64,000 nucleotides of DNA, from positions 1,674,001 to 1,738,000 of the forward strand of contig OY540812.1 in NCBI GenBank assembly GCA_961205875.1, given 5' to 3'. The DNA comes from Sialis fuliginosa. Lineage: Eukaryota; Arthropoda; Insecta; Megaloptera; Sialidae. Below are positions 1,211-50,202 of the stretch, in pieces. Each line of letters opens with the position of its first letter. Positions within the stretch are counted from its first letter, which is position 1. The position numbers and the translations under genes were made by a program. The notes beneath the pieces are model-generated. The model did no database searches. It saw nothing but the letters and a program-made list of their open reading frames with translations, and had not been told where the DNA came from.

Positions 1211-1833
1211 AAGCATTTAATATTAATTTACACGCACAATTATAAAACTGTAATACCTCTACGTCTTATTTTCTTGTTTTTTAGTCGATATTTCTATGAT
1301 AAATTTCACTAAAAAATTCCAAATTTTTTATTTCGTTAAAAGTATGTTTATTGTATAGAAAACGACGTGAAAAGTTGTTTGTTTCAAACCGCAGGTCTGT
1401 ATCTCAAACCGTTCTCGAGATATAGCCTCTCAAAGTTTTAGTTTTTTCAAATTTTTGGAGAAAAAAGGCCATAACTTTTGAACGTGTGGTCGGAATTGAT
1501 TTTAGTTGACGGATTTGGAATCAGCGTGTCAAAATCTATATAATGACATGTATAATACCTTAAAATTAGGAAAAAAAAAATTCGCGAAAAATCGAAAAAA
1601 TTCAAAGGGGTATACCTTAAAAAAATGTCGATTTTTGACGAAAATTTTTTTGTCGGATTTTAAAGTATTATACATGTCATTATATAGATTTTGACACGCT
1701 GATTTCAAATCCGTTGACTAAAATAAATTCCGACCACGCGTTCAAAAGTTATGGCCTTTTTTCTCCAAAAATTTGTAAAAACTAAAACTTTGAGAGGCTA
1801 TATCTCGAGAACGGTTTGAGATACAGACCTGCG
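1211..1833. repeat. Long inverted-repeat element copy A, left part
   Basis: This is the left arm and centre of a foldback element whose second copy is at 29542-30420. The turn of the hairpin is near 1600, where AAAGGGGTATACCTT appears. Sequence from about 1380 to 1540 returns inverted at 1680-1830 (TATCTCGAGAACGGTTTGAG). The arm is interrupted at 1833 by the Transib-like insertion and resumes at 3535. There is no coding capacity; the reading frames at 1506 and 1742 are by-products of the inverted repeat. Confidence 0.85.
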
Positions 1834-2489
1834 CACTATGGGCCAGGAGACCCTGTTCTGTGGCCAAAAGTCTACTTTCGAATTTGAGAAAACGAATTAG
1901 ACCACTGAATTCGGTATTAATTGAAGTAGTTATGATGACAATTCCATGTTGATTAATCAATTCCTGTTCAAATGACAGGGGCGCAAAGTTGAAAAATGTA
2001 TAAAAAAAATTATGTTACTGTCGCTTGTAAAATGTAATATTTATTGTAAAGTCATAAATTTCAAGCCCTATATTTGGATTATTTCATTCGTGGAAGTTCA
2101 AAAATTATTTTAAATGTCACATGAATGCGTTATTTTCAGTTTTACTGAAGTAAAACCACATTTTTAGTATAAAAAAACAATATTTTTCAGCAAAGCACCT
2201 GCTGCCGATAGCGAATACCGAAAGATACCGCCTTGTATTAAGTAATGTGACCCACAAATGTCTTCTCTAGGATGTGCACTTCAGCCTAGATCTGCCCCTT
2301 TTTGCCCGTTTTCATTTGCTTGACTGTGAAACTCTTCTAAACGTACAAGAATGATATGTACAATGTACATATTTATTTCACATTGTATAAACGAATATAG
2401 TACTACGAGTGTACAAACTTTCTCTGGACCGTGAAATTTGAGGGGTGTCTTCCTTTTATGATCTAAGCATCCATTAAGAAAATATTTTT

Positions 2490-3115
2490 CTAAATTCAAC
2501 CCTTACGGGGGTAAAAAGGGGTGTAAAATTTTGAATGGGAAAATATTTTTTGGTTGGATTTACTTGAAACTTAAAGTAATACAAATAATGAAACTAGTAT
2601 TTCCCAAAATTAAACTACTAAGGGGTGCAAGGGGGTGGAAAAGTTTATATGTCGAAAAAAATTTGTTTGTATTCACTCGAATGAAACATTGCACACATAT
2701 TGTACAAGACAAATAGCAATTTCGAAAATTCAACCCCTAAGAGATGGGAGGGGGGGGGGGGTTATTGGTGTTTAATTTTCAAAATTATGATATATTTATT
2801 TACATATTTTTTACGATATTAAGGTAAATTCGGACAAAATAATATTCAATTAAAATTAAAATTTCAACCCCTAATAGCGTAAAAGGTGGACGAGGGTGGG
2901 TTTTTGATATGTTTATCTGCATAGTTTCTTTAGTTATACAGGTGAATTTGGACAAAATAGTCTTCAATAAAAAAAAAATGCACACTCAACCCCTAATAGC
3001 CGGGGTAGTCAGGGGGTGGGTTTATGCAATTTTTAACTAAGATCCAAGATATTTACAATTATTTATAGGTAATAAAAAAAAAATTATATTTCATCCCTTG
3101 TCACGAAGGGTTGCA
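2490..3115. repeat. Degenerate ~120-bp tandem modules inside the Transib-like element
   Basis: A module with the core TTCAACCCCTAA followed by a G-rich AAAGGGGTG-like stretch recurs at roughly 2497, 2615, 2728, 2865, 2985 and 3090. It includes a long G run near 2749-2760. A related CCCTTGTCACGAAGGGTTG string at 3097 resembles 11135-11160. The modules are non-coding. Confidence 0.6.
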
Positions 3116-3216
3116 ATTAGTTTCATTCATAGTGTTACAGCGAAACTTTGTTATGGATTGTTGTAAGGAGATTACTTGTATTTAGATTCTTATTTTTTTA
3201 CACCGCGTGCTTACCC

Positions 3217-3491
3217 TTATAAAATTAATTTTATTTAAATTGGATAACTTTTGAAATATCTTGGTCGCCATATTGGATCCGCCATTTTGAATTTTTAAAT
3301 TTTATAAAAAATTGAAATCAGCGTCCCAATATAACCATATAAAATGAATTTTATTAAAATCGGATAACTTTTGAAATATATTAGTCGCCATATTGGTTCC
3401 GCCATTTTGAATTTTTTTATTTTTATTAAAAATTTGAAATCAGCGTCCAAAAAAAACCTTATAAAATGAATTTTAATTAAAACGGATAACT
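3217..3491. repeat. ~121-bp tandem repeat, about 2.3 units
   Basis: Units share AATTTTATTTAAATTGGATA-like starts, GGATAACTT, TCGCCATATTGG and GCCATTTTGAATTTTT. They sit just inside the right end of the Transib-like element and make up part of its body. Confidence 0.75.
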
Positions 3492-3534
3492 TCTGGACTT
3501 TTGGCCATAGAACAGGGTCTCCTGGCCCATAGTG

Positions 3535-3780
3535 CTGCGGTTTGAAACAAACAACTTTTCACGTCATTTTCTATACAATAAACATACTTTTAACAAAATC
3601 AAAAATTCGAAATTTTTTAGTGATATTTCCTGCAGTGAACTTCAACTCGTCATACAAATATCGACTAAAATACAAGAGAATAAGACGTAGAGGTATTATA
3701 TTAAATACTATTTTTGATTTTAGGTTAAAATGTTTAAGTTGCGCATAAAGATGAATATTCTGATAATATTTTTAAATTAT
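3535..3780. repeat. Long inverted-repeat element copy A, right part
   Basis: It continues the arm broken at 1833, beginning with the second CTGCG duplication and then GGTTTGAAACAAACAACTTT. It matches 30131-30420 of copy B through TTTAAATTATTTATTAACTG. Confidence 0.8.
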
Positions 3781-28615: not shown

Positions 28616-29541
28616 GGAATTAAGGGTAAAGGGTTTTGGATATAAGTTTTGAAATCCTATTCAATGTAAATGCAAAAAAATAAATCGAGAAGGTACTGGC
28701 ACCAATTATGGCCGCTATAAGAGCAAGGTTTACTGTTTTTTGGGATTGATGGACTTATTTTTTGAAATTCTCATTAACTCATGTTACTAATAAAACAATT
28801 AAATCAGTTTAAATTTTCTCTTTCTAGTTACTTCTTTCTCACGCCTAAAAAATGACATTCTTTTAATTTCTGGTACATTTCACCAGAAATTCCATGAATC
28901 AAACAATCAAAACTCGTTGTTCCGTTTCTTTGGTCAGTCGTGAACGTGACCATTGATTTGTGGAAGCTATGAAATATTGGTCGACCAGTAAGACATTACT
29001 AATACCTAGAATCACAAGTAATTACCGTCGAAATTCCCCTAAAATCATGAATTCCGCATACTTGTTCCTTGTGTTATATATATAATATAAACCGTGGAGG
29101 AGGAGGGTGGGCTTGTTAGATCTCGTAAGGGATTTTTTCTTTCGCCGGAGGGATTATGACATTAGATATAATCGTGTCATTATCGTTTCCTCTCTTACAA
29201 CTTTTTTTATGTGCTACATTTTATGGTTTTTAATAGATAATGATAGTCGGAAAGTTTTTTTGGATTAGGTTGTTATTTTATATTTTATGGAAACTTAATT
29301 GTTTTGACCCAATTAATTTTTTAATTATAATTTATTTTCTAGCTGGGGGTCGTCTGTAAAATATGTACGCAAAAAGGGGAGGAGGGTAATCAAAAAAACA
29401 AAAAAATTCTAGTGGCGAGGTGTGAAATTTTTAATAAGGGAAGCATATTTTGTCAATCCTCCCCCTCCTATTTACAAAAAAAAAGTAGCTTTTACTTTTT
29501 TAAATTCTTATATAAATATTTATATAGTGACTAAATGATTC
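28616..29541. other. No recognised gene
   Basis: 28690-28730 contains AGGTACTGGCACCAATT, an inverse relative of the GGTGCCAGTACCTTA string at 52619 and 62135. 29090-29160 and 29360-29480 carry G-rich and A-rich patches. Nothing else is assignable. Confidence 0.4.
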
Positions 29542-30420
29542 TACGTCTTATTTTATTGTATTTTAGTCGATATTTGTATGACGAGTTGAAGTTTACTGCA
29601 GGAAATTTCACTAAAAAATTTAGAATTTTTTATTTCGTTAAAAGTATGTTTATTGTATAGAAAATGACGTGAAAAGTTGTTTGTTTCAAACCGCAGGTCT
29701 GTATCTCAAACCGTTCTCGAGATATAGCCTCTCAAAGTTTTAGTTTTTTCAAATTTTTGGAGAAAAAAGGCCATAACTTTTGAACGCGTGGTCGGAATTG
29801 ATTTTAGTTGACGGATTTGAAATCGGCGTGTCAAAATCTATATAAAGACATGTATAATACTTTAAAATTCGAAAAAAAAATTTTGGCCAAAAATCGACAT
29901 TTTTTAAGGTATACCCCTTTGAATTTTTTCAATTTTTCATGAAATTTTTTTTTCGAGTTTTAAGGTATTATACATGTCATTATATAGATTTTGACACGCT
30001 GATTCCAAATCCGTCAACTAAAATCAATTCCGACTACGCGTTCAAAAGTTATGGATTTTTTTCTCCAAAAATTTGAAAAAACTAAAACTTTGAGAGGTTA
30101 TATCTTGAGAACGGTTTGAGATACAGACCTGCGGTTTGAACAGTTCAACTTTTCACATCATTTTCTATACAATAAACATACTTTTAACGATATCAAAAAT
30201 TCGAAATTTTTTAGTGAAATTTCCTGCAGTGAACTTCAACTCGTCATAGAAATATCGACTAAAAAACAAGAAAATAAGACGTAGAGGTATTACAGTTTTA
30301 TAACTGAGCGTGTAAATTAATATTAAATGCTATTTTTGATTAAAATGTTTGAGTTGCGCATAAAGACGAATATTCTAATAATATTTTTAAATTATTTATT
30401 AACTGAAAACACAGATTTGT
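29542..30420. repeat. Long inverted-repeat element copy B (empty site)
   Basis: A foldback with its axis near 29910: CTACGTCTTATTTT at 29542 returns inverted as AAAATAAGACGTAG near 30275. It preserves GACCTGCGGTTTG at 30126, the uninterrupted version of the site that carries the Transib-like insertion in copy A. The right side extends through TTTTAAATTATTTATTAACT; the left outer arm is lost. Confidence 0.85.
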
Positions 30421-49672: not shown

Positions 49673-50202
49673 TTAAGTAGAAATCTTTTTTACGGCCAAA
49701 TCATCATGCAATATCTTATTGATGCTTGTCATATTAATGCACAAAGATGACTCAATCTCACGGTATGTCACATGACGATCTTGCTTTATCAGTTCACGCA
49801 CGGCATCGATTTTTTCTGGCACAACAACCGATTTTGGACGACCTTCACGGAATTCGTCCTGGAGCGAACATCGGCTACAATTGAATTCGTTATACGAGTT
49901 TTTTACAGTGCTGTAGGATGGTGCTTTATCACCATATAAAGAATTAAGTTCATCAATACACTCTTGTCTTGATAATCCACGTCGAAAGTTGTGAAAAATT
50001 ATCGCACGAAAATGTTCACGGGTTAATGCCATTCTTTGCCGAGATGACTTTTCTTCAAGTAACTGTAAACAACACAAATCGCGCTCAATTTACAAAATGT
50101 TTTGAAGAAGGTTATATTCAATAATGTCTGGTTTCCAATGAAAACGACAGATGGCACCACACTCAATGTTGCCAAGGTCAGAAATATAAATAGCAACCCT
50201 CG
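49673..50202 (-). pseudogene. mariner transposase, N-terminal fragment with 5' end
   Basis: Reading down from an ATG at 50032, the frame gives MALTREHFRAIIFHNFRRGL, then SRQECIDELNSLYGDKAPSY, DEFREGRPKSVVVPEKIDAV and HVTYREIESSLCINMTSINK. These are the paired helix-turn-helix domains (about residues 4-50 and 60-110) of a mariner transposase. About 119 residues of the usual 345 or so remain, and the catalytic DDD domain is gone. Homology ends after HDDLAVKK. The 5' terminal sequence CGAGGGTTGCTATTTATATT (on the minus strand) ends at 50202, next to TA at 50203-50204. The copy is inactive. Confidence 0.92.

Follow-up and report, generated by a model that had tools for sequence, protein, structure and literature searches.

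Structure of a gene-less element in a foldback repeat

The window (the whole 64,000-nucleotide stretch of Sialis fuliginosa DNA analyzed here) carries at positions 1834–3534, plus strand, a 1701-bp element with 39-bp inverted ends. Direct reading showed that the left terminal inverted repeat (TIR; 1834–1872, plus strand), CACTATGGGCCAGGAGACCCTGTTCTGTGGCCAAAAGTC, and its inverted copy at the right end (3496–3534, minus strand) are identical at 38 of 39 positions, the single difference being G/A at position 27. Each end consists of a heptamer-like CACTATG (1834–1840 and 3528–3534), a 23-bp spacer and a nonamer-like CCAAAAGTC (1864–1872 and 3496–3504), and the element is flanked by the target-site duplication (TSD) CTGCG, read directly at 1829–1833 and 3535–3539. 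An earlier sequence-only reading of the window had described this arrangement at both ends and an exact 5-bp duplication; both were seen again here, and the observation on 1834–3534 as a whole is confirmed.

Alignment to an autonomous copy located elsewhere in the genome (L039, described below) showed that three parts of it survive in the window element: approximately 1.28 kb from one end, a middle piece of 82 bp, and the opposite end. The first piece (1834–3086, plus strand) matched one end of the autonomous element with 89.5% identity, and the middle piece (3132–3213, plus strand) is followed by a subterminal tandem array (3218–3492, plus strand) of 2.3 copies of a 120-bp unit, the corresponding array in L039 being approximately 1 kb long. 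The deletion between the middle piece and the second end took out the entire transposase gene, in agreement with the earlier statement that the element has no transposase. The window also contains a 134-aa frame on the minus strand (49673–50077), which looks like the N-terminal region of a transposase of the mariner type.

The insertion splits a host foldback repeat (1301–3628, edges approximate) that would be approximately 620 bp long without the element. A sister foldback at 29540–30285, with 344-bp arms that are 93% complementary and a 58-nt loop, carries the same site, GACCTGCGGTTTG, uninterrupted: when the two flanks of the window element were joined computationally, the product was this site, and the bases equivalent to the TSD lie at 30129–30133 (plus strand) and, in the other arm, at 29692–29696. 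The intact empty site that had been proposed for the sister foldback is thus present.

Copies in the genome and the target-site duplication

A search of the genome (392 Mb, 20 contigs; 40 of 2637 first-look candidates scored) returned at least 183 pieces matching the window element. A 30-base end pattern with up to two mismatches was found 211 times in the 392 Mb (104 forward and 107 reverse), which exceeds chance, as the reversed-pattern control gave 0 forward and 0 reverse matches. Five pattern matches were obtained in a search of viral contigs for relatives, and none was confirmed.

The sequence-only reading had asked whether other copies share the duplication length and the position of CCAAAAGTC. 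In all 21 full copies read, which are a non-random sample because they were selected among those matching the window element best, both ends were the same 39-bp repeat, CCAAAAGTC was retained at both ends, and the duplication was exact and not longer than 5 bp. We also collected 134 ends, which matched 17 bases exactly and had A, C or G at −18 (the 211 matches were counted with another pattern). When ends from the two flank lists were paired, 44 elements resulted, of which 43 had an exact duplication, and 46 of the 134 ends had no partner in those lists. The union of the 21 read copies and the 44 paired elements, seven being common to both, comprises 58 elements with both flanks read, and the 5-bp duplication was exact in 57. 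The lone exception, on contig C2 at 25015154, has the 5-bp flanks GCGCG and CTGCG.

The window copy and L002, a copy on another contig, were 100.0% identical after rounding (their search scores were slightly unequal), yet they lie at different insertion sites with different TSDs (CTGCG and TTATG, respectively), which points to recent movement. Two longer members with the same ends and exact duplications (G000:C2:17712480-17716174, 3695 bp, and G000:C14:732111-736270, 4160 bp) had no transposase match among the matches listed.

An autonomous copy encodes a Transib transposase

On contig C1, locus L039 has two ends with the same 39-bp repeat, 5362 bp apart and flanked by the TSD CACCT. It contains an intact open frame of 746 codons, or 722 aa from the first ATG. 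Among the matches listed (62 of 96 candidates scored), this was the one copy of the window-family transposase gene; the other 61 matches to the L039 protein were 34–54% identical and belonged to other Transib families or were fragments. The 722-aa protein matched the HzTransib transposase (PDB 6pqn) over residues 179–649 with E = 2.7e-97, and its D285, D395 and E608 aligned with HzTransib D126, D225 and E436 (chain positions 109, 208 and 419, a constant offset of 17), which are given as catalytic residues in a passage of PMC6941560. These three residues (the DDE triad) were invariant across the three aligned Transib families of this genome, and a profile of the three families reached amphioxus RAG1L and vertebrate RAG1 with E = 1.7e-10 to 2.4e-4. 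A Pfam search of the L039 transposase gave no RAG1 match, and L039 was absent from the 35 matches of a genome search with the Pfam RAG1 model, all of which scored below the curated cut-off. The frames of at least 100 codons in L039 were three, namely the transposase and frames of 132 aa and 105 aa inside it on the opposite strand, and none of these looked RAG2-like.

An autonomous copy with the same ends thus encodes a protein matching HzTransib, so that the window element is read as a Transib element, and this interpretation as a whole is supported. The features found are a RAG1-core-like DDE transposase, a 5-bp TSD (57 of 58 elements) and CAC-starting TIRs with a heptamer resembling that of recombination signal sequences (RSS); the Transib membership first proposed from the window sequence therefore held, and the search that had been suggested for a transposase with the same ends led to L039. 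Ends that begin CACTATG could also suggest that the element belongs to CACTA (EnSpm) or to another group of the CMC superfamily. The TSD of CACTA elements is 3 bp, however, and because the family investigated here has a 5-bp TSD and its same-ended autonomous member encodes a Transib transposase, the CACTA assignment is ruled out, with next to no probability left to it.

Regarding the Transib element in the window, we consider it almost certain that it is a gene-less transposon derived from an element like L039 and moved by an enzyme into a preferred target within a foldback arm. As the alignment shows, internal deletions in an L039-like element removed the transposase gene and kept both 39-bp ends and part of the 120-bp array. 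Six gene-less copies that were mapped fell into two groups with slightly unlike junctions. Since the gene-less copies are only approximately 90% identical to L039, they may descend directly from another autonomous lineage that has disappeared or escaped detection. Judging from homology to HzTransib and RAG1, a Transib transposase, most probably the one encoded by L039 as the single intact copy found, would recognize the CACTATG...CAAAA ends and excise the element by its DDE triad. Joining to a preferred palindromic target, which the same homology suggests, would produce the 5-bp duplication observed, and good matches to the target within the foldback arm, evident from position and motif score, would account for the landing there. 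L039 could move the window element, as it has an intact enzyme gene in the same genome, and we infer that its product mobilizes the window family. Of the earlier proposal of an active or recent source, the source itself was found, as an intact gene found once and as near-identical copies at different sites; its activity is a matter of inference.

Two other Transib families

Family A comprises 2812-bp elements with CACAGTG ends. The 18 loci compared (L019–L036, on contigs C1, C3, C4, C5, C6, C7, C8 and C12) were 99.3–100% identical over common pieces, and family A looks, from these sequences, to have been recently mobile. Of the 17 copies in which both ends were read, 16 had an exact 5-bp duplication; L034 was the misfit, and L036, which has no left end, was excluded from the count. 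At least 31 frames of 753 aa were found; among those listed, 19 were stop-free and 12 had one stop. Family A was first met in the genome search with the Pfam RAG1 model, where it fell below the cut-off, and the whole protein scored 37.2 bits against that model (cut-off, 25). As a source of the window element, it was rejected on its CACAGTG ends. From L036:3132 onward (C8 near 7904340), a 904-aa frame fuses the family A transposase with another N-terminal reading frame, which may come from a different mobile element; a second frame of this kind lies near C8:22775765.

Family C elements are 2875 bp long, with CACATAC/G ends and, in L052, the duplication CAGCG; four stop-free 680-aa frames were found among the matches listed. 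The second family C copy read, L053, is probably immobile because its right end (3040–3100) has lost its terminal bases. The family transposases were 34–36% identical to that of the first of the three families. An 808-bp window-family member (G000:C4:29499821-29500628) and the family A element L023 have nearly matching flanks and apparently share one insertion site within another repeat, which suggests a target common to both families.

The number of these genes bears on which enzyme currently moves the window-family copies. The transposases of family A or C might do so in trans, given at least 19 stop-free 753-aa frames in family A and at least four 680-aa frames in family C against one window-family gene copy. 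We regard this as very improbable, because the ends diverge after CAC (CACAGTG and CACATAC/G versus CACTATG), and because family A prefers the target CGNCG and the window family CANTG. The gene on C1 is the mover that we favor.

Target preference and insertions in the foldback repeat

The preferred target of the window family is an extended palindrome, TTYNNAC|CANTG|GTNNRAA. Over the 134 ends, the duplication was mostly C-R-N-Y-G, preceded by C in 57%, with T at −6 in 75% and C/T at −5 in 89%. When the 14 foldback ends were left out, T at −6 was found in 88/120 and C/T at −5 in 105/120; the p-values for this 120-end set presume independent ends, which paired ends are not. The corresponding preference of family A (34 ends) was CGNCG, with T at −6 in 56% and C at −5 in 65%.

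The host foldback repeat contains at least nine elements, distributed over three sites with high scores for the target motif. The first site holds the window copy, L046, L049 and the C2:25015154 element; the second holds the autonomous copy L039, C1:9377006, C13:11587416 and C6:25645194; and the third holds C13:1354883. For the window copy and L039, longer flanks were aligned to the foldback; the other seven were placed by flanks of approximately 13 bases, C1:9377006 by one side alone.

All 746 positions in the sister foldback were scored with a motif derived from the other 120 ends. Of the six arm positions that correspond to the insertion sites, five took ranks 1–5, the empty site CTGCG (30129–30133) having the top score, and the sixth (30035) fell outside the top ten. 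The chance figure for the five positions, 3e-12, presumes independence, and the two foldback arms are not independent. Among 63,971 positions of the window, the same five ranked 8, 26, 47, 58 and 102. The motif alone is therefore an incomplete account of the choice of the foldback, because seven better-scoring window positions lie outside it.

Alternatively, the foldback insertions might be copies of one or a few events that spread along with the repeat. The window copy, L046 and L049 share both position and the TSD CTGCG, two elements at the second site are equal in length (1652 bp), and most insertions were placed by short flanks, all of which fits such a spread. However, the inserted elements vary in length and subtype (1701, 1765, 1885 and 5362 bp) and in orientation, and the TSDs at the second site are unlike one another (CACCT, GGATG and GAGTG), which makes spread with the repeat improbable and argues for repeated hits.

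Likeness of the ends to recombination signals

The RSS consensus consists of the heptamer CACAGTG and the nonamer ACAAAAACC, and the spacer of the 23-RSS is 23 bp. Against this consensus, the heptamer matched at 5/7 positions in the window family, 7/7 in family A, and 4/7 and 5/7 in family C, and the nonamer at exactly 23 bp matched at 6/9 positions in five of the six ends and at 5/9 in the sixth. In all three families, both ends carried CAAAA at a distance of exactly 23 bp from the heptamer (6/6 ends). In the window family and in family C, no other spacing scored gave as good a nonamer match as 23 bp at either end; in family A, 23 bp only tied for best. No 12/23 asymmetry of the kind reported for some Transib elements in part of PMC8355894 was found, because both window-family ends are of the 23-type. 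As judged from these sequences, the RSS likeness of the window-family ends appears partial.

The nonamer-like sequence at 23 bp might nevertheless be a coincidence without a role in an otherwise genuine Transib element. It agrees with the consensus at only 6/9 positions, family A has equally good matches at other spacings of its A-rich ends, and conservation does not single out the nonamer because the entire 39 bp is conserved. In contrast, CAAAA stands at exactly 23 bp at both ends in three families whose transposases are as divergent as noted above, and the nonamer score summed over the three families (one end per family) was reached in 0 of 20,000 shuffles when the spacing was fixed at 23 and in 31 of 20,000 when any spacing was allowed. 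Coincidence is a serious possibility to which we give somewhat less than even weight.

A GRP motif was invariant in the aligned transposases, approximately 75 residues ahead of the HzTransib-like part. In RAG1, an AT-hook-like GGRPR opens the nonamer-binding domain, residues 389–464, according to a section of PMC6941560. A PDB profile search (E ≤ 10) for this domain in the N-terminal part of the transposase returned one unrelated chain (E = 0.99), and the predicted models were of low confidence (mean pLDDT, 59.5 for the N-terminal part and 43.5 for the whole protein). A link between GRP and the nonamer, based on the motif and its spacing alone, is a lead only, because the domain search gave nothing of that kind and the models were poor.

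Taken jointly, these observations allow a proposal that we hold tentatively and consider rather unlikely to be correct in all its parts: that the Transib transposases of this genome read a bipartite, 23-RSS-like end, with the N-terminal GRP motif, placed like the GGRPR that precedes the remainder of the RAG1 core, reading CAAAA; that nonamer recognition may predate RAG and have been lost in short-ended relatives; and that a target palindrome extending approximately 7 bp past the duplication on either side may turn a foldback into a landing pad.

Comparison with known systems

The core of RAG1, the enzyme that rearranges antibody genes, is thought to descend from the Transib superfamily. Transib is itself a known kind of element; what is new here is the location of the source gene of the window family and the description of its extended target motif. 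One intact source found, approximately 100 same-ended elements, exact 5-bp duplications and an empty site together offer a clean natural dataset from which to learn which positions of the ends and targets the transposase reads. With CAAAA at 23 bp in all three families, whether nonamer recognition predates RAG becomes directly testable.

The L039 transposase shares with HzTransib of Helicoverpa zea (PDB 6pqn and five related entries) a homologous catalytic core over residues 179–649 in which the DDE triad is kept, and the 5-bp TSD is that reported across the Transib superfamily. Hairpin formation on the flanking DNA and cut-and-paste movement are described for HzTransib in a portion of PMC6941560. 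L039 differs in having approximately 170 residues, with the GRP motif, before the aligned part, whereas the solved HzTransib chain, possibly a trimmed construct, has few, and in its 39-bp ends with a nonamer-like core.

The 5-bp TSD and the CCANTGG core of Drosophila hopper and transib2 agree with the C-CANTG-G of the window family. The Drosophila Transib motif CCANTGG, 7 bp long in hopper, is given in part of PMC3276498; the preference of the window family reaches further, to T at −6 and C/T at −5.

With ProtoRAG and RAG1, the window family shares a related DDE core, a heptamer that starts with CAC, and CAAAA at 23 bp as in the 23-RSS. It differs from them in that no RAG2-like frame was seen among the open frames of at least 100 codons in L039 and that both ends are of the 23-type, and from the RAG signals in that its heptamer and nonamer agree with the consensus at 5/7 and 6/9 positions, respectively.
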